Origin: a virus
Strand: one strand, 5' to 3'
Virus record (IMG/VR): IMGVR_UViG_3300033064_002823
Location: 1-41,922 of that record
DNA length: 41,922 nucleotides
Made by a program: the position numbers and the translations under genes. The notes beneath the pieces were generated by a model. It worked only from the letters and a program-made list of their open reading frames with translations, made no database searches and was not told the origin of the DNA. How positions within the stretch are numbered: the first letter of the stretch is position 1; every line of letters begins with the position of its first letter. Of this stretch, positions 8,946-39,027 are shown piece by piece.

Positions 8946-9719
8946 TCAAATACCGACTTCCGGAGCAGTCATCCAGTCAAGATGTCTGGCGAGGCGCTCT
9001 CTTACGCGTCTGGAGAAATCTTCAGCAGCATTAAATCTCTTCTCGAACTCGGAGAAATCTTCGGCAGTGTTGATTCCGTTTTGCACTCGTTCTACTTGAA
9101 CCAGGTCTATATTCTGACCGCCAAAGAACTCTTGCTCAAGGTCCACTGGGCCTTCCGAGCGGCAATAGTACAGAGCTATTTTCCTGAACGCGTAAATGCC
9201 TATGTGCTTTAGCGGCACTATGTCGCCTGCCTGCCGGTAGAATAATGGCCTTCCAGGTGGAGTCTGGTAAACCTTAACCACGCTTTTTGAATTGATTTCG
9301 TCTGCATTAACGTCTGACACTAGCGTACGGATGTTGAACGCATCATTGCATTTCATCTTAGCAACCAGAAGGTCAAGGTCGCCAGGTCTCACTTCCGGCT
9401 CGTCGGCCTGGATGTTCACAAAGATGTCGTAGTCCTCGAACTGTGGCATCCGCGAAACGAATCTGACTCTCATTGTTCCACTGTGAATCGGTTCCTTTGA
9501 TTCATCAGTGAAGACTGCGGTCTCGCATCCGAATCTCATCGCCTCCCTGATGATTTCCGGGTCGCCGGACGCAATGACGACCCTGTCGAGCGACTCGGCC
9601 TGCATTGCCTGCTCATACGTGCGCTGAAGAATGGTCTTCCCGCCGACCCGCATCAGGAGCTTGCCCGGCAATCTCGAAGAATTGAGTCTGGCGGGAATTA
9701 CCCCTAACGTCCTACTCAT
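8946..9719 (-). CDS. KdsB-like CMP-sugar synthetase (cytidylyltransferase)
   Basis: This 257-residue protein matches 3-deoxy-manno-octulosonate cytidylyltransferase, which activates Kdo with CTP. Visible elements are PARLNSSRLPGK near residue 8 (nucleotide loop), HSGTMRV, NIQADEPEV (the KdsB VQGDEP motif), HIGIYAFRK, and NTAEDFSEFEK near the C-terminus. The ATG at 9719 overlaps the GNAT stop (ATGA). A related CMP-sugar specificity (pseudaminate or sialate type) is possible. With the neighbouring acetyltransferase and the distant glycosyltransferase it suggests a nucleotide-sugar supply for phage-directed glycan work. Confidence 0.85.
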   Translation of the reverse strand: MSRTLGVIPARLNSSRLPGKLLMRVGGKTILQRTYEQAMQAESLDRVVIASGDPEIIREAMRFGCETAVFTDESKEPIHSGTMRVRFVSRMPQFEDYDIFVNIQADEPEVRPGDLDLLVAKMKCNDAFNIRTLVSDVNADEINSKSVVKVYQTPPGRPLFYRQAGDIVPLKHIGIYAFRKIALYYCRSEGPVDLEQEFFGGQNIDLVQVERVQNGINTAEDFSEFEKRFNAAEDFSRRVRERLARHLDWMTAPEVGI

Positions 9720-10228
9720 TGGATATCCTTCTGGCGTTTTCGGCACGCTTCTGCGATGGACGCGATGTGCTTATCGCTAAGATTGTCCATCGGCACGACA
9801 TATTTCGCTCGATACACGTTGTCGCTTGCGGCCTTCATGACGAACCCGTGATCCTTCAGGAAGTTGAGCACGTCGAGCTTCTCGTCATGGATCAGGCACG
9901 TGAGCGTCATTTTCCTTGCTCGACGAAGCTGAGTCATGACGACTTTCATCAGGAAACTTCCGACACCCTGTCGGCGATATCCATCCTTGACGCAAACGGC
10001 CTCGAGGCGCATCTTCGAGTCTTCAGCGAAAGACCAGTGGGCGTAGCCGACAATTGCCCCTTCCTCGTTCAGAGCAACAACCGGCAATCTGCTCGGCCTT
10101 CCGCCGAACTCGCGAATCATGGATTCGAACATGACCGGGTCTGGTGATACATGGAAGCATTCCGAATCAATCTCCAGAACGGCCCCAATGTCACTGATCT
10201 GCATCTGCCTGATTACTATTTCCATCAT
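9716..10228 (-). CDS. GNAT-family N-acetyltransferase
   Basis: This 170-residue protein has the GNAT fold: an N-terminal strand and helix (EIVIRQMQISDIGAVLEID), the central IVGYAHWSF strand, and the acetyl-CoA pyrophosphate loop RRQGVGSFL, as in RimI-like enzymes. It transfers acetyl from acetyl-CoA to an amine; the substrate is unknown. Two adjacent ATGs (10228, 10225) follow GAGAGG, and the gene overlaps the ParB-like gene by 38 nt. Overlap with the CMP-sugar synthetase leaves an amino-sugar substrate possible, as in PseH-type pathways, but this is inference. Confidence 0.85.
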   Translation of the reverse strand: MMEIVIRQMQISDIGAVLEIDSECFHVSPDPVMFESMIREFGGRPSRLPVVALNEEGAIVGYAHWSFAEDSKMRLEAVCVKDGYRRQGVGSFLMKVVMTQLRRARKMTLTCLIHDEKLDVLNFLKDHGFVMKAASDNVYRAKYVVPMDNLSDKHIASIAEACRKRQKDIQ

Positions 10229-11204
10229 CGCGAATCCTCTCAGTAGACGGACTGATTTCACCATCCCTGGAGAGTTGCAACAGAGCTTCTCTCGTAGCCC
10301 GCATAATACTAAGAGCGATCCCTGCTCGGGAGGCCACGTCGTTACTTGGCTCTGGCAGGAAGGCAACTGCCGCCTCGAATTTTAATATCGCATCCCTAAC
10401 CATCTTCGATGGCACTTCATGCTTCTTGATCTTCTTCACGCCACGAAGCTGGTCTGCCAGTTTATCGAATCGGCTGATCCCGTGCGTATTGAGCGAAGTC
10501 CTCAGCTTAACAGCATCAGCAATCCTTCCTTCGCTCTTCAGCAGGTCAATGGCAGCGAGGGCCTTGCGGGCTTTCTTGTAAAGGGTCTCGCCCATCCCGG
10601 AATTCTTCAGGGCCACATCAAGTGATGATTTCGCACCTGATTCTATGGCTATTTTGATTGCATCCTGCAGCTCTTCCGGGTTGGTGACATAATCAGTAAG
10701 CCCCGGGACGTCGCGGATGTTTTCGATTCCAGCGATACCATCAAGGTCGGTTGGTAGGCTCCGGCTTGCCAGTTCCAGGCGGAACCTGATCATGACATCG
10801 GACACTTCCTTGATCTCGCGGACCCTTTGCTCGAGCGTCTTAGACCTCTGGGTTCGGTTGGCCTCGATCAGTGCCCACAGGATCTTGTCTTCGCTGTCAA
10901 GGTCGTATCTAATCCTGACGGGGACAGATTCCAGTTTGGCTTCCAGGGCAGCCAGCGTCCTGCGGTGCCCGGAGATTATCACGTATTCAGGCGTAACCTG
11001 AATCTCCTCGATGATTCCACCGGTCTTGATTGACTCCAGCAGGGCGATGTCGACTTCCTCTTCTCCATAGATGTCGACATTCTTCGGGTGCGGCTTTAGA
11101 GTTTGCGGCGTCACCCACTTAATCGTTTCATCCAGCTTAATCTCTGCTTCGTTCTGGCAGTCAGCGTCCAGCTCGTCATCATTGCGGTTGTCGTCGCTCG
11201 GCAT
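10191..11204 (-). CDS. ParB-like nuclease-domain protein
   Basis: This 337-residue protein opens with an acidic tail. A ParB/sulfiredoxin-type domain follows at about residues 33-110: LKPHPKNVDIYGEEE, LLESIKTGGI, and the catalytic or CTP-binding motif GHRR (79-82). A helical region of about 100-230 follows, and the C-terminus (about 270-337) is probably disordered. Such phage proteins act as regulators, nucleases or partition factors. The ATG at 11204 has a strong GGAGGGAAC upstream, so it is probably the first gene of the leftward operon, facing the divergent region. Confidence 0.82.
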   Translation of the reverse strand: MPSDDNRNDDELDADCQNEAEIKLDETIKWVTPQTLKPHPKNVDIYGEEEVDIALLESIKTGGIIEEIQVTPEYVIISGHRRTLAALEAKLESVPVRIRYDLDSEDKILWALIEANRTQRSKTLEQRVREIKEVSDVMIRFRLELASRSLPTDLDGIAGIENIRDVPGLTDYVTNPEELQDAIKIAIESGAKSSLDVALKNSGMGETLYKKARKALAAIDLLKSEGRIADAVKLRTSLNTHGISRFDKLADQLRGVKKIKKHEVPSKMVRDAILKFEAAVAFLPEPSNDVASRAGIALSIMRATREALLQLSRDGEISPSTERIRDDGNSNQADADQ

Positions 11205-11417: not shown

Positions 11418-11837
11418 ATGTTGCGTTTTGTCAGGTCGTGGTTCTTCACGTTGGTTTCTTCTGAGGTTTCAGCCACGAAGGCTAAACTGAAGGAGAAGTC
11501 GACTGAATGCAAGTTGCTTACTGCTAAGGCCCAGCGGATGGATCGCGAACTTCTCGATCTATCCGAAGACGTTGACCGGCTGCAGGATGAGCTTGGTGTG
11601 TCGCGAGAAGCGTTAAGGCAGAACGATATCGTAATAGAAGAGCGGGATTCTGCTATTAGTCTGCAGGAATTCCAGCTCGAAATGCAGCAGTCGATAATTC
11701 AGAGGGATCTGGAGCTCCGAAAGGCCGAGCGGTTGGCAGCGTTAAGCCAGCTGCAAAGCCTCGAGGGAATGAGACTGGAACTTGGCGCCGACAATAATCG
11801 GCGTACCGCTGAAGAATCCGGAAACAGCCATCGCTAG
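11418..11837 (+). CDS. Coiled-coil protein with possible N-terminal anchor
   Basis: This 139-residue protein has a short hydrophobic N-terminus (RFVRSWFFTLVSS, residues 3-15) and a long Leu/Glu/Arg heptad region (about 30-115) that predicts a coiled coil. The ATG at 11418 follows GGGGAG. Its last 25 codons are repeated as a second in-phase copy just upstream of the portal gene. It could be an anchor or spanin-like protein or a head accessory; the role is unknown. It is the first gene of the rightward block. Confidence 0.7.
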   Translation: MLRFVRSWFFTLVSSEVSATKAKLKEKSTECKLLTAKAQRMDRELLDLSEDVDRLQDELGVSREALRQNDIVIEERDSAISLQEFQLEMQQSIIQRDLELRKAERLAALSQLQSLEGMRLELGADNNRRTAEESGNSHR

Positions 11838-11841
11838 GGCG
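11758..11841 (+). repeat. 84-nt direct duplication, copy 1 (coiled-coil gene 3' end)
   Basis: This copy is identical to 12561-12591 over the first 31 bases and matches in the last 13; the middle is diverged, but both copies stay ungapped, with the same 25-codon frame and the same stop. It ends the coiled-coil gene and precedes the sulfotransferase-like gene. Confidence 0.9.
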
Positions 11842-11868
11842 GGGCACATCACGAAGAGGGGAGGCTTT

Positions 11869-12528
11869 ATGTCCTTAGTATACCCTAAGGCGAAACTTCT
11901 GGTTATGCAGCCGCCAAAAACCGGTTCGCAATGGGTTAAGGCTGCCGTGGTGGCCACCCTCGGCAGCCGCCCGAAACAGGTTCCGCCAAGCGTTGGATTC
12001 GACAGAAGGCACGCCGGATACGGCGAGACACGCAAGCACTTCCCTGGCTTGGATAATATGTTTTGCTTAACTACCGTGAGAAGGCCAGACAAATGGTTAA
12101 GAAGCTATTGGGCGATGAGGACAAGTAAGAGGAACTGGCAGGATAATTTCCCTTATTCGTCGCCCGTCAAGTTGGACGCGAATTGCCGGTCTGGTAATTT
12201 TGAGGATTTCATAGTGAAGTACCTGCAGCATTGCCCGGGACTTTTCAGCGTGCTGTTTAGCGATTACGTCCCTGACAGGCCTCTCGTTTTCGTGTGTCGG
12301 CAGGAGTCGTTAAGGGGCGACTTCAAAAGGGGGATAAAGGCTTGGAGGAATACAATCCTTGAGGGGCAATTGAATGCTTCTGACATGGTGCCTAACAAAA
12401 ACAAATCAAGCTCTAAGGTAAAGGACAGGGCCGTAATTAGCGACGAGTTAATCGTCAAGATATTTAACGCCGAGAAAGAATTCATGCTCAAGTACTATCC
12501 GGAACAGTACAAAGAATACTGTTCGTGA
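11869..12528 (+). CDS. Sulfotransferase-like protein
   Basis: This 219-residue protein has the 5'-phosphosulfate-binding loop PPKTGSQW (15-22), close to the PKTGTTW of PAPS-dependent sulfotransferases, and a 3'-phosphate-binding-like segment RRPDKWLRSYW (71-81). Such enzymes move sulfate from PAPS to sugars, lipids or proteins. The ATG at 11869 has GGGGAGG 5 nt upstream; the frame is open upstream only because it runs through the copied portal leader. It lies between two copies of an 84-nt junction and is probably an inserted cargo gene. Its substrate is unknown. Confidence 0.75.
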   Translation: MSLVYPKAKLLVMQPPKTGSQWVKAAVVATLGSRPKQVPPSVGFDRRHAGYGETRKHFPGLDNMFCLTTVRRPDKWLRSYWAMRTSKRNWQDNFPYSSPVKLDANCRSGNFEDFIVKYLQHCPGLFSVLFSDYVPDRPLVFVCRQESLRGDFKRGIKAWRNTILEGQLNASDMVPNKNKSSSKVKDRAVISDELIVKIFNAEKEFMLKYYPEQYKEYCS

Positions 12529-12560
12529 CTTTCTCGCCGGAAACGGTGTAGTATACCAGG

Positions 12561-12644
12561 GCCTCGAGGGAATGAGACTGGAACTTGGCGCTAAGGATAG
12601 CAAATATGACGCTAACGAATCTGGGATCAATCATCGCTAGGGCG
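12561..12644 (+). repeat. 84-nt direct duplication, copy 2 (portal leader)
   Basis: This is the second copy of 11758-11841. It still encodes an in-phase alternative tail (ending in ESGINHR) for the coiled-coil protein, but no gene now enters it. The diverged part holds the portal Shine-Dalgarno sequence AAGGA and the portal ATG at 12606. Confidence 0.9.
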
Positions 12645-14006
12645 AGTTCAATCCCGACGATGAATACGATCTCGTTCTCCGGAGCTGGCCCGAACAAGGC
12701 TCCGTCCGAGTATCCTGCTGAAGAGCAGTTCCCAAGAATGGCCGTTGGTGGTCAGTACAACGGGAAGACTGTCGCCCCCTGGGAAGACGACAAAAACACT
12801 TATGCCAGGCAGTACACGGGAAGCACCTACATGGCCATTGGGGCAATTGCCAAGATGGTGGCCATGCAGGACATTCGCGTCATGCGGCGAATGAAGAAGA
12901 AGTCTGGCGTTAAGTATGAGTCCGTCAGCTTTACTCACCCGCTGCAGGAACTTCTCGAAGAAATGAATCCCATTGACGCCATGTGGGACATATGGTTCTA
13001 CATGGTTGGCTGGCGACTGCTTACTGGTGATTCGTATCTGTTCAAGGCGAAGAATGGATTTGGCGTTCCGGTCCAGCTATGGCCAGTTCCAAGTCAGTGG
13101 ATCCGAGTGGTTCCCGATCCGAAGGAGTTCGTTGCCGGGTACGAGATCAGCTCCGGCGTCGATTCTCACTTCATTCCGCGTGACTGCATGATGCACATCA
13201 AGAATCCGTCGCTTGACTGGCAGGGCCAAGGGCGATTCTACGGAACTCCGTCCATTAAGGCGGCGGCGACCACTATCGAGCTCGAGAAGGAGATGTTGCG
13301 GCGGCTCTATTACACGTTCAAGAACTTCGCTCCCCCAGGCATGGTGTTTCAGACGGATCAACGATTGCAGCCGCACCAGGTCCATCAGTTATGGGCGAAT
13401 CTGGCAGCTCAACATTCGATGTCCGAACATTCCGGTCGTCCAATGGTTGTGCATTCCGGTCTGACTCTGGCGACTTCCTATCAGCAGAACAGTCAGCGAG
13501 AATTGGACTACACCGGCAGTCTTGACATGACGCTGGATATCACGCTCGCAACGCACGGAGTCCCTCGCGCCGTCCTCGGATTAACCGACGGTTCGAACAA
13601 GGCTTCGATGGACTCGGCACTGACTCAGTTCTGCAAGATGACTATCGATCCGATCCTGAAACATTTCAGTCAGCACTTTACGCAAAACCTTGCTCGCGAC
13701 TTCGAGCCGGACAAAAGTCTCGTGGTCAAGATTGGTCCTTGCGTTGTCAATAAAGAAGAGCAGCTGGCAAAGATCATCGAGGTCATGCTCAAGGCTGCGG
13801 CCATCACTCCGGACGAGGTTCGGGAAGTGTTGATGGATATGGACCCGATGGATTCTCCGCACGGGTCTAAGGCGGTCATGGTCTCTGGCTTCCAGGCAAT
13901 TGATCCTGATACTGGCCGACCTGACCTTCCTCAGGGTGATGCAACTGCGAAAGAGCCTTCGGAAACGGTGGCTGTTGGTCGTCAGGCTCTGGGTGGGAGA
14001 AACTGA
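12606..14006 (+). CDS. Portal protein (HK97-type)
   Basis: This 466-residue protein has the typical portal plan: an N-terminal tail, then a wing/stem region with WRLLTGDSYLFKAKN and QLWPVPSQWIRVV, a central DCMMHIKN and YGTPSIKAA segment, a conserved-looking GVPRAVLGL and a helical C-terminus. The portal forms the dodecameric ring at the packaging vertex. The ATG at 12606 has AAGGA 8 nt upstream. No terminase gene precedes it, which is unusual. The Pro/Gly-rich C-terminal tail overlaps the antisense gene at 13876-14622. Confidence 0.9.
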   Translation: MTLTNLGSIIARASSIPTMNTISFSGAGPNKAPSEYPAEEQFPRMAVGGQYNGKTVAPWEDDKNTYARQYTGSTYMAIGAIAKMVAMQDIRVMRRMKKKSGVKYESVSFTHPLQELLEEMNPIDAMWDIWFYMVGWRLLTGDSYLFKAKNGFGVPVQLWPVPSQWIRVVPDPKEFVAGYEISSGVDSHFIPRDCMMHIKNPSLDWQGQGRFYGTPSIKAAATTIELEKEMLRRLYYTFKNFAPPGMVFQTDQRLQPHQVHQLWANLAAQHSMSEHSGRPMVVHSGLTLATSYQQNSQRELDYTGSLDMTLDITLATHGVPRAVLGLTDGSNKASMDSALTQFCKMTIDPILKHFSQHFTQNLARDFEPDKSLVVKIGPCVVNKEEQLAKIIEVMLKAAAITPDEVREVLMDMDPMDSPHGSKAVMVSGFQAIDPDTGRPDLPQGDATAKEPSETVAVGRQALGGRN

Positions 14007-14622
14007 CAATCCGCCTCTCCTTCTCGCTCAACTTCGGGGGGTGCTGGACTCTCAAGTGGCATTCGATATCACCATTGCTGATGTCTGGGTGGTCTCGATC
14101 GCTGATTATGGAAAGCCTCAGTTCCCCTTTCTCTGGTATAACGAGATATGCACCACAAGACACTGGTGGTCCAAACTGCCATGTGGACGCGGCTCCCCAT
14201 TCCAGGCTCATCGACCTCGTGTCCCATAAGTCGATGAGTTGCTCGACCCTCTTTCTGGTTGCGTGTCCTTCCGGGTACGTGTTCCTTACAACTGTCGACG
14301 CTTGCTTAATGAGTCGATGTGATATGGCCATCTGGTTCCGGAACACTAAGTCGTTGATCGCTTCGACGAGTTCCCCCCACCCTCGCTCCAGTCCATTTCG
14401 TATTTTCTCCATAGCGATGTCGGCTTTATTGATCGTGGCTGCGACTTGAGGGCTTGTGGTTTTGTGTGAACCGCTAAGGTCTGGGCGGTTCACTGCGGCG
14501 GCCATTAGTTCTGTGATTGCCTGGGATAGTGATTTCCGATACTTTTTGATCATCTGATCGAACACTTCAAACAATTCGTTCTGCACCTTTACGCTTACTC
14601 GTCTTGTAAGGCTTCCCGACAT
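13876..14622 (-). CDS. Antisense ribbon-helix-helix-like DNA-binding protein
   Basis: This minus-strand gene of about 248 residues lies between portal and protease. Its N-terminus (residues 5-40: SLTRRVSVKVQNELFEVFDQ, then MIKKYRKSLSQAITELMAA) is a ribbon-helix-helix (CopG/Arc) pattern, suggesting a DNA-binding regulator. A helical region and a beta-rich end follow. The ATG at 14622 has GGGAG 7 nt upstream and shares the CATG with the protease start on the other strand. The last ~44 residues run antisense to the portal end and may be fortuitous. Anti-sense expression could repress late genes. Confidence 0.6.
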   Translation of the reverse strand: MSGSLTRRVSVKVQNELFEVFDQMIKKYRKSLSQAITELMAAAVNRPDLSGSHKTTSPQVAATINKADIAMEKIRNGLERGWGELVEAINDLVFRNQMAISHRLIKQASTVVRNTYPEGHATRKRVEQLIDLWDTRSMSLEWGAASTWQFGPPVSCGAYLVIPEKGELRLSIISDRDHPDISNGDIECHLRVQHPPKLSEKERRIVSFSHPEPDDQQPPFPKALSQLHHPEEGQVGQYQDQLPGSQRP

Positions 14623-15643
14623 GTCCGACTCCCTGGAACGTTTAGGCAGAATCCAAAAGGCGATGCTGGCCAGAACATCCACAATGGTTGCTCGGCCACA
14701 AAACAATCGCGTGCGTAACCTGATCAGTCTAGCGGCGACGGGTACCGACACCAGCCCGAGTACCGAGCAGAAGGCTTCCGGCAATTACCGCAAGGGCCGC
14801 TTCTCGATGCGTGGAATGCAGTTTGTTATCGAGAATCCCAAGGGAACCGTTCGCAGCGGCAATGGCTGGCAGGTTGTGATGCCAGCCCACTACGGATACA
14901 TACTGAAGACCAAGTCTGACGCTGATGGTGATCATCTTGATGTGTTTATCGGGCCTGACCCAGAGTCCGATACCGTGTTTGCGATTGACCAGTCTGACAT
15001 TCGCAATCCAGACAAGTTCGATGAACACAAATTCATGATCGGGTTCCTGACTCGTGATGCTGCGGTTCAGGCATACAACGATGCGTTCAATGGGTCGTCA
15101 CCGATCAGTGCTGTGGTCGACATGTCCTGGGAAGACTTTAAGACATGGATTGAGTTTGGTGATTCATCAACTCCGATTGTCGATCAAATGCTACGCAGTT
15201 TCAATTCTCGCGTTGAGCTGATGAAGTCGCATGAAGATACTGAGGGGAACGTTTACGTCTATGGCGCCTGCATGGTTCCGAATCTGGTCGACCGCTCTCC
15301 GTTTCGGGACTACTACACAGAGGATGATGTCCGGTCAGCTGCTCGCGGCTACATGATGAAGAGCCAGAAGGCTGGCTACAGGCACAAGGCGATCTTCCTT
15401 AATGAGGACGTGCAGCTGACCCAGTCGTTCATTACTCCCGTTCCAATTAAGATTGGCGAGAAGGATATCCCTAAGGGGTCCTGGGTTGTTGAGTTCAAGT
15501 TGAATCACCCGGAAGCTATCCGTATGGCTAAGGCTGGTGAGTTTGCGGCATTTTCAATTGGTGGCCCTTCCAGGAAGTGGCGGTTGGAAAAAAGGGACGG
15601 GTCTTGCAGCCCGTGGTATGGTCCAGGGAGGGGCGACAACTAA
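14621..15643 (+). CDS. Prohead protease: InPase-like domain fused to XkdF-like (S78_2) protease
   Basis: Residues about 55-150 form an inorganic-pyrophosphatase-like domain seen in phage polyvalent proteins, with ADGDHLDVFIGPDPES and FDEHKFMIGF. Residues about 210-325 match the XkdF-type phage serine protease family (Peptidase_S78_2): VYVYGACMVPN, HKAIFLNEDV, SFITPVPIKIG, KGSWVVEFK and GEFAAFSIGG. The protease presumably matures capsid and scaffold proteins. The ATG at 14621 has AAGG 9 nt upstream. The last ~17 residues (after KWRLEK) overlap the tnpB remnant and may have been replaced by insertion-element DNA. Confidence 0.8.
   Translation: MSDSLERLGRIQKAMLARTSTMVARPQNNRVRNLISLAATGTDTSPSTEQKASGNYRKGRFSMRGMQFVIENPKGTVRSGNGWQVVMPAHYGYILKTKSDADGDHLDVFIGPDPESDTVFAIDQSDIRNPDKFDEHKFMIGFLTRDAAVQAYNDAFNGSSPISAVVDMSWEDFKTWIEFGDSSTPIVDQMLRSFNSRVELMKSHEDTEGNVYVYGACMVPNLVDRSPFRDYYTEDDVRSAARGYMMKSQKAGYRHKAIFLNEDVQLTQSFITPVPIKIGEKDIPKGSWVVEFKLNHPEAIRMAKAGEFAAFSIGGPSRKWRLEKRDGSCSPWYGPGRGDN
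15590..15625 (+). other. Possible left end of IS200/IS605-type remnant
   Basis: A stem-loop ACGGG-8-CCCGT lies at 15597-15614 just before the tnpB-like start codon, as expected for the subterminal hairpins of IS200/IS605 elements. It also lies in the protease 3' end. No matching right-end hairpin was seen. Confidence 0.3.
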
Positions 15644-35019: not shown

Positions 35020-36291
35020 ATGAGTTGCGAACATGACTTGTGTACGCTGATAGGGAAACAGATACACGGCAGGCTACTGGAGATATGGGATGGAAAATCT
35101 GGCCTAAGCAAAGAGAAAGAACAGTCTTATCGCGACATATGGATTGCAGGTTCAGGCAGGCCAGCGTCCGACTTCGGCAAGTTTCTTCCCGATCAACCCA
35201 AGGGGCCTGGTATCCTCAAGAAGGCTGCCAACCTTACCAAGGCTGTGGTGAAGCACGTTAACAACCCGACGATCCTTAGTGATGCCGACAAGGAGAAGCG
35301 GCTTCTGGCCTGTCGTAATTGTAGCTATTGCGACAAGGCGAAGATGATCTGTAGCCACAAGAAGTGTGGATGCTTCCTGTCGAAGAAGTCGGGTTGGGAA
35401 TCGGAAGACTGCCCTGTCGGTCGATGGCCAAGCCTTAACCTTGAGCCGAAGCTTGATCGTGAATTCGTCGCCGGGCCTCGAGTGCAGAAGTTTCTGGTGA
35501 ACTGGTACGGAGAGTCTGGCGACTGCATGCAGCATCACCTGCGTGGCGCTCCAGTGTTCCTGTTCTGCGGCGGACCTTCACTGAACAGTATGGACCTTGA
35601 GATATTCAATCAACGAGGGATTGTAACGGCGTCAGTGAATCAGGTTGCGGCGACGCATATCAGGCCACGGTACGCATTCTTCGTTGACCCGCCACGGAAG
35701 TTCCACACGTCAATCTGGGACGACCCAGGCATCATGAAGTTCACCCGGAGGTCGTTAAGCAAGGGGAAGCTGGCAGTAGACACGAAAGAGGGCTGGCAAG
35801 TCACGGGGAAAGCATGTAGAGATTGTCCGAATACGTGGTTCTATGAGAACTCGTACGGTCTCGACATCAACGATTACATGATACGCGAGAAGCCGACCTG
35901 GGGCGGCGACCTGCGTCGTGGTGAGAATCCCGTGGCGACACGAAGCACGAGAAACGTAATGCTGATCGCGATGCGGATGCTGTACTGGCTTGGCTCGCGT
36001 AACGTGTTCCTTGTCGGTGCTGACTTCAACATGCAGGAAGGTAACAGCTACGCCTTCAAAGAGCCTAAGGATAAGCGAGCGGCGTCAACGAACAACAACA
36101 CCTATACGCTGCTCAATGGATTCTTTCACGACTTGAAACCAGTGTTTAAGCAGTGCGACTTCGAGGTTATCAACTGTACTCCAGCCAGTCATATTGATGC
36201 ATTCCCGAGGATGGATTACCGGGAAGCTGTTTCGCTGGTAACTGAGAAGTGGAAAGGGAGCCCGAACGTAAGTGGGCTTTATCGACTATGA
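35020..36291 (+). CDS. Zinc-ribbon plus MptE/DUF115-like protein
   Basis: Residues about 95-135 form a Cys cluster (Cys98, 101, 104, 111, 116, 118, 131; CRNCSYC, CSHKKCGC, CPVGRW), a zinc-binding segment seen in phage tail-region proteins. Residues about 175-400 resemble the 6-hydroxymethylpterin-pyrophosphokinase/MptE-like DUF115 fold: VFLFCGGPSLNSMD, RPRYAFFVDPPRK, NVFLVGADFNM. Members are often found with glycan-modification genes. The ATG at 35020 has GGAG upstream. It may be a transferase acting on a nucleotide sugar, but this is not proven. Confidence 0.62.
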   Translation: MSCEHDLCTLIGKQIHGRLLEIWDGKSGLSKEKEQSYRDIWIAGSGRPASDFGKFLPDQPKGPGILKKAANLTKAVVKHVNNPTILSDADKEKRLLACRNCSYCDKAKMICSHKKCGCFLSKKSGWESEDCPVGRWPSLNLEPKLDREFVAGPRVQKFLVNWYGESGDCMQHHLRGAPVFLFCGGPSLNSMDLEIFNQRGIVTASVNQVAATHIRPRYAFFVDPPRKFHTSIWDDPGIMKFTRRSLSKGKLAVDTKEGWQVTGKACRDCPNTWFYENSYGLDINDYMIREKPTWGGDLRRGENPVATRSTRNVMLIAMRMLYWLGSRNVFLVGADFNMQEGNSYAFKEPKDKRAASTNNNTYTLLNGFFHDLKPVFKQCDFEVINCTPASHIDAFPRMDYREAVSLVTEKWKGSPNVSGLYRL

Positions 36292-37229
36292 TGCTAAGGT
36301 TACTGACAGCCTCTCCGTATCTGTTTTCAATAGGCGACATTACCATTGCCAGCGAAACTTCCCGGCAATTCGCCTTGAGGGGAATAACTTGCCTAGAAGA
36401 TCCCCTAACTAAAGTTAGCGACGGCGAGGTTGCGGTAATTGGCGGTGGCCACGTTATTACTGGGGCGAACCATGTCGCGATTGGAAAGTCGTCTTCAGGG
36501 AATCCCGGCAGGTCGACTTTGAATGTTTTCCGCCCGCCAGGAAAGCACCTGATGAGTTCTGTCGGGGTGAGGCTGAGGGACAAGCCGGATTGTGATATGT
36601 CTTATTTGTCTGAGTACCGATACCTGTCAGCCAGGGATAGCGGATCATGCGAATTCCTCGAGAGAAGCTCACGGCAAGAGGTTCATTCTGTTCCGTGCGT
36701 CGCGTCGCTTTCTCAATCGATGCATGTCAACGATGTCGTCAGCCTGCACGGATTCGAATGGATCCGGCAGCGCATCGGCTCTTATGTTGTTGTGCATTCT
36801 GATCACACGCTGCTTCAGTATGAGATTCGTGACGGAATACGCATGGAAACTCAGGGCTGGATAAACAGGCCAGTTGGCGGGAAGATGCCTGTTGTTCCAG
36901 TTTCCAGTTCTCCTTATGTTGTTTCCGGGGTCATATCTGGAGCAAGGGCAGTTGTTACCAGGTCACTGCATATGGCTATATTTGCGTTGAGCAACAGGGT
37001 TCCGTTCTGCTGTATCGATTGTGGTGATGACGAACAGACCGAAAAGCTCCGATCGTACTTTTCAAGAGCAGGAATCCCGCAGGTTATGTATTCCGGAAGC
37101 GACCCCGTGAAATACGCAGTCGGAAACATTACGAGAGAAACGCTCGACGCTGTGCAGGCTAAGGAAATTGAGTCTTGCACTAATCATTTTGACGCCATGG
37201 CTTCTTTGGTAAATGGTAATTGCACATGA
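36288..37229 (+). CDS. Polysaccharide pyruvyl transferase family protein
   Basis: These enzymes add a pyruvate ketal from PEP to surface polysaccharides. The ATG at 36288 overlaps the previous stop (ATGATG) and gives 313 residues. Visible elements: SIGD (14-17) and IGGGHV (51-56), VGVRLRD (92-98), LSARDSGS (113-120) and TRSLHMAI (224-231), matching the R-x-x-H pattern near the C-terminus of CsaB/WcaK-type enzymes. The frame is continuous. It lies in a glycan cluster after the Ser-rich tail genes. Confidence 0.75.
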   Translation: MMLRLLTASPYLFSIGDITIASETSRQFALRGITCLEDPLTKVSDGEVAVIGGGHVITGANHVAIGKSSSGNPGRSTLNVFRPPGKHLMSSVGVRLRDKPDCDMSYLSEYRYLSARDSGSCEFLERSSRQEVHSVPCVASLSQSMHVNDVVSLHGFEWIRQRIGSYVVVHSDHTLLQYEIRDGIRMETQGWINRPVGGKMPVVPVSSSPYVVSGVISGARAVVTRSLHMAIFALSNRVPFCCIDCGDDEQTEKLRSYFSRAGIPQVMYSGSDPVKYAVGNITRETLDAVQAKEIESCTNHFDAMASLVNGNCT

Positions 37230-37837
37230 GAAAATACCAATCGTTCTACGACAGAAGCTCTTCTGATTCAGAAGGGAAATGGGCAAGGTTTGGCATTCCC
37301 AAACTAACTGGCTCATTCCTTGATATCGGCTGCAATGAAGGCTTCATGTGCCACAAGGCAAAGTCTGCCGGTGCGGACATTGTCGTGGGGATCGATTCTT
37401 CTATCCCAGTGATAAAGCTGGCACGCAAGAGGTGCGGGCAGAACCTGCAGGGCGCCGCTTACTTCCGGGCAATGGACTGGAAGTCGCTGTTCGATAAGCC
37501 TGCCTGCGGGATATTTGACACAGTGCTCGCCAGTTCATGCATGCATTACTGCGATGCGTCTGTTGTCGGCGAAGATGGAAAGCATCCTCTGATTCACGCG
37601 GCGTCGATCTCGACAAGGCCTGGCGGGCTGTTCGTGCTGGAATGCGGGATAGCCCCAGGCGACGAGTGCGAATGGAAGAGGATTAAGCGGCCTGTTGGTG
37701 ACACGGCATGGCACCCAACAGTAGCGGCTGTGGAAGCGGCCCTGAACTTCTCGTTCTCTTCGTACGACTTCATTGGGAAGAGTGTTAACCAGAAAGGTGA
37801 CAGAGTAGACAGGTTTGTTTATCACGCGATTCGTTAA
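37226..37837 (+). CDS. SAM-dependent methyltransferase
   Basis: This 203-residue Rossmann methyltransferase has motif I LDIGCNEG (32-39), an acidic motif GIDSS (about 52-56), FDTVLASSCMHYC (about 96-108) and RPGGLFVLE (about 133-141). The ATG at 37226 overlaps the pyruvyl transferase stop (ATGA). It may O-methylate a sugar; the substrate is not readable. It ends in GTTAAC, which also carries the stop of the antisense gene. Confidence 0.8.
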   Translation: MRKYQSFYDRSSSDSEGKWARFGIPKLTGSFLDIGCNEGFMCHKAKSAGADIVVGIDSSIPVIKLARKRCGQNLQGAAYFRAMDWKSLFDKPACGIFDTVLASSCMHYCDASVVGEDGKHPLIHAASISTRPGGLFVLECGIAPGDECEWKRIKRPVGDTAWHPTVAAVEAALNFSFSSYDFIGKSVNQKGDRVDRFVYHAIR

Positions 37838-38292
37838 CAAGCTCGACCAGCGACCCATACGCGAAATCCGCTCGACTTTAATTCTTTGATGTAGGCGTCG
37901 CGAAATCTCCGGTTAGTTAAAATTGCCCCGTCAACAATTACAATCTTCTCAGTCATATTGAAGTGGCCATGGGACTTAAGGTCGCAAATGAATTCTGCAT
38001 TATTCCTGATTAGCATCTTGTAGGCGTCTCCGATTCTGTTGCAGTTCTTCTTCCATGACCTTCTAACATTCAGGCAGGATTCCGATTTCGCCCACTCGTC
38101 AATCTGAATCATTGTATTGTCCAGAGACACTACTCTGAATGTCTTGCAGTTATCAATAGTGACTGTTGATTTGGTGATTAAAAGGTTCAGCGCAGACGCA
38201 AGCGAGGTCTTCCCTGTCCTTGGTCTGCCGTATAGAATTATCGCCGTCTTCTGAAACCCGGTTTCTCTAATGTCAATCGCAGATCTTGCCAC
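37834..38292 (-). CDS. Antisense P-loop kinase, APS-kinase-like
   Basis: This 152-residue protein has a P-loop GRPRTGKT (22-29), then VVSLDN and RRSWKKNCNRIGDAYKML (like the NIRRI-EVAKL stretch of APS kinase), and VIVDGAILTNRRFRDAY (like the VIVSFISPFRADRD loop). This resembles CysC, which makes PAPS from APS, but a polynucleotide or sugar kinase remains possible. GTG at 38292 has GAGGA upstream. It lies antisense, ending in the shared GTTAAC and starting 15 nt from the glycosyltransferase. Confidence 0.5.
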   Translation of the reverse strand: MARSAIDIRETGFQKTAIILYGRPRTGKTSLASALNLLITKSTVTIDNCKTFRVVSLDNTMIQIDEWAKSESCLNVRRSWKKNCNRIGDAYKMLIRNNAEFICDLKSHGHFNMTEKIVIVDGAILTNRRFRDAYIKELKSSGFRVWVAGRAC

Positions 38293-38307
38293 GTAAGGTT
38301 CCTCGGA

Positions 38308-39027
38308 ATGGATTCCGTATCATTAGTGACAATGACTTCTGACAGGCCGGTCGCTTTGGCTCTGTGTCAGAAGTGGATGCGAGAGCAGGACTTCCAAGGG
38401 GATGTCCAGTGGGTGTTTTCGGATGATGGTACGGAACAAATGCAACTGAGTGAAGTCCGACCTGGCTGGGCCGTCGACATCGATCGCAGGCCGCATAGCG
38501 AGAATCCGATTCATTCATTCTATGGCAATGCTGAATCTGCCGTGTTCCGGTGCAAGAATGACATTATCGTGTTCATTGAGGACGATGATTACTACGCCCC
38601 CGGCTGGCTGAGTTGGGTCGTAAACGCGATCAATGCTGGTGCTGATTGCGTGGGCGAGGGGAACGCCAAGTACTACAATGTTCACCATCGGCACTACAAG
38701 TTCATGAGGAACAGGGGGCACGCTTCGTTGTGCCAGACGGCGGTCGCTAAGGATGCGTTCATCCCGTACTTCAAGGAAACGTTCCATCGCAGGAAGTATC
38801 GGAAGTTTCTCGATATGCATTTGTGGCGGCATGCGTTATTGCATCAGCATCCGTTCCTGAAGCCGGAATCAGAGCATGTCGTTGGGATCAAGGGAATGCC
38901 AGGCAAAGGTGGGCTCGGATCAGGGCATCGGCCCGGCAGGGGTTGGATAACTGATCCCGAATTCAGAACACTGACTTCGTGGGCTGGCGAGGATATTGCT
39001 GGGTTCTACTCGGAAATCAAGTACTAA
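38308..39027 (+). CDS. GT-A (family 2-like) glycosyltransferase
   Basis: This 239-residue protein begins with the GT-A start VSLVTMTSDRP, then FSDDG (37-41), the metal-binding IEDDDYYAPGW (90-100, DxD region), and C-terminal KGGLGSGHRPGRGW. It would transfer sugar from a nucleotide sugar to a protein or glycan. The ATG at 38308 follows AAGG. It stands next to Ser-rich tail genes and a pyruvyl transferase, which suggests glycosylation of phage or host surface. Donor and acceptor are unknown. Confidence 0.78.
   Translation: MDSVSLVTMTSDRPVALALCQKWMREQDFQGDVQWVFSDDGTEQMQLSEVRPGWAVDIDRRPHSENPIHSFYGNAESAVFRCKNDIIVFIEDDDYYAPGWLSWVVNAINAGADCVGEGNAKYYNVHHRHYKFMRNRGHASLCQTAVAKDAFIPYFKETFHRRKYRKFLDMHLWRHALLHQHPFLKPESEHVVGIKGMPGKGGLGSGHRPGRGWITDPEFRTLTSWAGEDIAGFYSEIKY

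Follow-up and report, generated by a model that had tools for sequence, protein, structure and literature searches.

A probable sulfotransferase gene between two copies of an overlapping gene junction in a phage genome

Duplicated targets and gene gain in phages

Overlapping genes are densely packed in phage genomes, and still these genomes constantly gain new genes. In the refactored phage T7.1, gene overlaps were separated by engineered duplication, which gave each gene its own copy. Here, we describe a locus at which an overlap is likewise duplicated, but naturally, in a virus record of 41922 bases that was analysed over its whole length (the window). The locus behaves like an insertion with long target duplication. 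Of this route of gene uptake, which is known although little explained, it is a clean example. This route was reported for restriction-modification genes of Helicobacter pylori (Nobusato et al. 2000, as presented in PMC1643837 and PMC3031569), and, as in the cases outlined in those two papers, a gene without its own transposase or recombinase is flanked by a long direct target duplication while relatives have the empty site. In our locus, the target is empty in six relatives, the flanking duplication measures about 100 nt, and the insert contains no transposase, integrase or IS. In contrast to the H. pylori cases, as far as they are presented there, the genome is that of a phage, the cargo is sulfotransferase-like, the target is a pair of overlapping genes split by the duplication, and the two copies have partly diverged. 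Restriction-modification cargo is the usual association of such insertions and not a requirement for them. What is new, at this single locus, is the phage setting, the cargo, and a duplication that separates overlapping genes.

Other phage systems share single features with the locus. The free-standing homing endonuclease genes of T4 are also extra genes placed between conserved phage genes and absent from relatives, but they spread by cutting, whereas the cargo here is not an endonuclease (PMC2988022); a word search for duplication in that review gave nothing. The PeSL promoter/stem-loop cassettes of T4-like phages (Arbiol et al. 2010, via PMC4503421) likewise tie short repeats to gene shuffling. 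Unlike those cassettes, in so far as that source portrays them, the repeat core described below does not fold above chance, has no further copies and, in one of its two positions, is part of a coding sequence. For a gene overlap duplicated through cargo insertion in phages, we found no description in the literature, an absence which is weak evidence.

The two copies of the junction

In the window, the coiled-coil gene (11418 to 11837, plus strand, 139 aa) is the conserved upstream neighbour of the portal protein gene (12606 to 14006, plus strand, 466 aa; PF04860, E=2e-44), and its orthologues occupy the same place in all relatives. A cargo gene lies between the two, and the coil/portal junction is present on either side of it. 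A core of 31 nt at 11758-11788 recurs exactly at 12561-12591 as a direct repeat with a spacing of 803, and about 2e-10 pairs of this kind would be expected by chance in random sequence of the same size. The core ranks second in length among the exact direct repeats of the window; the longest, of 67 nt (7-73 and 341-407), flanks an 82-aa minus-strand gene without a known family at the start of the contig, and resembles a leader that was copied rather than a duplicated gene overlap. The initial annotation had reported 31 and then 13 terminal identical bases around a diverged middle, without gaps and with the same frame and stop, and our re-alignment reproduced this exactly. Over 84 nt, the copies differ at 20 positions, all of them at offsets 31-70, with 0 gaps; the final 13 nt (CATCGCTAGGGCG) are the same, and the coiled-coil frame ends at the same TAG in both copies. 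Beyond the 84 nt, a weaker similarity reaches about 11857/12660, so that copy 1 (11758 to 11857, plus strand) and copy 2 (12561 to 12660, plus strand) are identical at 73 of 100 positions in an ungapped alignment. Copy 1 consists of the core, a rebuilt coil tail and a dead portal start, and supplies the last 80 nt of the coiled-coil gene, while copy 2 consists of the core and the portal start signals. The unique inserted segment between them (11858 to 12560, plus strand, about 703 bp) is missing from the coil/portal junction of every relative.

Copy 2 lies just before the portal gene and carries its Shine-Dalgarno sequence and ATG, as had been annotated: the true portal start is the ATG at 12606, with AAGGATAG directly upstream. 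The portal N-terminus encoded there, MTLTNLGSII, fits the MxLTNLxSII of the relatives, and in the 45 nt that begin at the portal start every relative is matched better by copy 2 than by copy 1 (for example, 30 versus 22, 31 versus 27 and 29 versus 22). Because it is nearer to every relative and encodes the N-terminus of the family pattern, copy 2 is the native junction, from which the portal starts. In copy 1, the coiled-coil gene comes to its end, and the portal ribosome-binding site and ATG are gone. The portal-start position of copy 1 holds GTA (at 11803), and the initial annotation is supported in seeing an old portal start there. The portal frame of copy 1 also continues into the sulfotransferase frame, as the same annotation had noticed (ORF 11782-12528, open); the chance of such an open frame is not small, and it proves little alone. 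The coiled-coil frame ends in CGC-TAG in both copies, a stop that occurs in none of the six relatives; the closest ones read CGA-CCA-GGC-AGG-TAG and are three codons longer. Since this derived stop is common to both copies, both descend from the phage's own lineage. It also counts against an assembly artefact, in which two strains or contigs would have been misjoined via the 31-nt repeat. The contig is metagenome-derived, which leaves room for such a misjoin, but the repeat is short relative to reads and all reading frames are kept at both junctions, and we find this explanation scarcely credible.

The mismatches between the copies fall unevenly, with 0/31 in the core, 13/18 in the block of the portal Shine-Dalgarno sequence and ATG, 7/35 in the next block and 7/16 at the end. 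The core is coding in copy 1 and is part of the non-coding leader in copy 2. Its perfection is odd, as it is non-coding in copy 2 and yet the neighbouring coding DNA has diverged. Under plain even drift, a perfect 31/31 core has a P of about 2e-5 over the 84 nt. Leaving out the SD/ATG block raises this to about 0.009, but the block was chosen post hoc and the latter figure is a guide only. An old tandem duplication of the junction, with the cargo gained between the copies much later and all differences due to drift, could have spanned the overlap and the start signals as the duplicated stretch does. However, under drift alone a perfect core in non-coding DNA would not be expected next to a coding tail that has diverged, and an empty tandem duplication occurs in no relative, which makes this order of events very improbable.

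A perfect core with a diverged neighbour makes it necessary, or at least plausible, that the copies later exchanged sequence through the core or that the tail of a donor was different. In the donor case, the coil tail of a close relative would have entered together with the sulfotransferase by crossover in the core, and the two tails would be different alleles that already existed. This would account for a 31/31 core with 13/18 mismatches directly after it, and three of the codons whose amino acid is unchanged carry synonymous differences. However, the donor was not found and would still require a first insertion of its own, the lineage-specific stop is common to both tails, and the mismatch peak on the portal start is equally explained by selection. 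We consider entry from such a donor unlikely.

Empty sites in relatives and the cargo gene

Portal searches of viral contigs gave seven contigs, of which L009 and L010 are nearly identical, leaving six relatives (L002, L003, L004, L009/L010, L034 and L035) with portal proteins 55-68% identical. In all six, the coiled-coil gene runs into the portal gene without interruption, and the portal gene starts, with its ATG, within the coil gene. Five of them have an overlap of 44 nt and L035 has one of 68 nt; the relative frame of the two genes is the same in every case. The window is the sole case with a gene between coil and portal. As the junction is uninterrupted in all relatives, the arrangement in the window is derived and represents an insertion. 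Joined across the core, the flanks encode a complete coil protein of 139 aa whose gene overlaps the portal in the ancestral way; removal of 803 bp across the core would recreate the ancestral layout exactly. Cargo at the junction is absent from all six relatives; the searches gave no occupied one, which leaves the window as the single instance of the event. DNA-level relatives in phage records and portal relatives in bacterial genomes were not found. One relative offers a contrast: in L003, a DNA methyltransferase gene lies between the ParB and coiled-coil genes, which do not overlap, and it is flanked by no direct repeat of at least 15 nt. This fits the explanation proposed below. As side observations, an intein with weak LAGLIDADG similarity apparently interrupts the portal gene of L035 (L035:7001-9484), and a DNA methyltransferase gene with an apparent LAGLIDADG intein adjoins a ParB-like gene in L009 (L009:2971-5250, minus strand).

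The initial annotation had proposed that cargo was inserted at a gene end with a duplicated junction and that relatives should show the coil gene running straight into the portal gene. The six empty sites support it, and no relative has both copies with cargo. Its insertion, duplication, old start and empty site all stood, whereas its analogy with attachment sites inside gene 3' ends did not. In a site-specific cassette, the core would be the attachment site, and a recombinase would move the sulfotransferase and rebuild the gene end, as at tRNA 3' ends; the geometry fits, with an identical core, a rebuilt tail on one side and the native one on the other. However, searches of the whole contig for tyrosine and serine recombinases were empty while the positive controls worked, so that the element encodes no recombinase, and the core did not recur at any further site, whether occupied or empty. 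In particular, the core is absent from other viral contigs, the junctions of the six relatives hold no core-like sequence, and no other cargo gene in the window is flanked by it, a check that the annotation had suggested. Folding of the core as an RNA element was not above that of shuffled sequences, and a promoter scan gave nothing beyond weak consensus matches. With no recombinase, no core elsewhere and no folding, an attachment-type cassette is highly unlikely, and the core was also rejected as a widespread repeat for want of a further copy in viral contigs.

The cargo gene (11869 to 12528, plus strand, 219 aa) is the insert's single plus-strand ORF of substantial size, has its own Shine-Dalgarno sequence GGGGAGG and shows no recombinase match. 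For its protein, which contains PKTGSQW and VRRPDKWLRSYW, searches of Pfam, PHROGs, NCBIfam and PDB gave nothing significant. Remote homologues were found in Planctomycetota genomes; they are 21-26% identical and have PKTG and VRxP in common, and the alignment shows the motifs PKTGxxW and RxPxxWxxS kept in cargo and homologues. These are the PAPS-binding motifs of the sulfotransferase superfamily. One aligned homologue matches PF03567 Sulfotransfer_2 (E=4e-4), while the cargo itself matches no curated model, and three of the six aligned proteins weakly match a Gal-3-O-sulfotransferase PHROG. A single-sequence structure model made without an alignment had a pLDDT of 33 and was unusable. The cargo is likely a sulfotransferase and, from remote homology only, probably a carbohydrate sulfotransferase, which would sulfate a carbohydrate. 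A Planctomycetota host is a guess taken only from the cargo homologues.

The Arg and Leu codon use of the cargo is unlike that of the neighbouring genes; for example, AGA/AGG make up 12/16 of its Arg codons versus 4/21 in the portal gene. No real relative of the cargo was found in phages, plasmids or viral contigs, and none among 386 genomes from the same phylum as G010. Motif matches in L011, L036 and L014-L031 were due to chance, with no sulfotransferase ORF there, and L039 was set aside as a homologue owing to a stop within the match. The contigs of L009/L010 (L012, L013) carry a different sulfotransferase (PF13469), located elsewhere. The window also encodes a cytidylyltransferase, a GNAT protein, a pyruvyl transferase, a glycosyltransferase of family 2 and a methyltransferase, which are sugar-related (8946-10366, minus strand; 35020-39027, plus strand), and the first four of these would fit a role in sugar decoration. 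At 14621-15643, an inorganic-pyrophosphatase-like domain (PF18823) is fused to an XkdF-type protease domain (PF14550).

Proposed origin and its meaning

As coil and portal share DNA, any insertion near their junction would cut one of the two genes unless the shared piece were copied. This is the reason for the duplication at both ends, which the initial annotation missed. We propose that a foreign gene of about 0.7 kb, the probable sulfotransferase, entered the site of the coil/portal overlap in this phage's own lineage, and that the insertion was accompanied by a target duplication of about 100 nt comprising the entire overlap and the portal ribosome-binding site. Because the duplication holds the overlap and the start signals, such an insertion is viable: the coiled-coil gene is completed by the left copy, the portal start is preserved in the right one, and the formerly overlapping genes are now separate. 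The portal start of the left copy was later lost, perhaps as a decoy in frame with the cargo; selection against such a decoy would erase the SD/ATG block just as it has been erased from copy 1. Of these steps, the sequence comparison shows the insertion, the duplication, the native state of the right copy and the dead start in the left one. As a whole, we give this explanation a probability of roughly 70%.

The join may have occurred by non-homologous or short-homology recombination, acting on ends that came from two sister or co-infecting genomes and shared an overlap of about 100 nt, and selection may have retained only products with two full junctions. Two joins at phage positions overlapping by about 100 nt are what we would expect from end-joining of two genome copies and a captured fragment. 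Phage T4 joins ends via 3-13 nt of identity (PMC8262927).

In conclusion, an overlap should block insertion, and this locus represents one solution, in which the overlap is duplicated, the new gene is placed between the copies and the spare start decays. The arrangement predicts a signature that can be searched for in phage genomes, namely a copied gene end and a copied gene start on either side of cargo, and it predicts that recombination across the repeat can reverse the insertion, which is open to test. We also propose, tentatively and with more doubt than confidence, that overlap-duplicating insertion is a general phage route for placing new genes between overlapping essential genes, in which the duplicate keeps the neighbours alive and allows precise loss of the cargo. 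If this is true, insertion would be reversible, and the repeat would serve as a built-in site of precise cargo loss.
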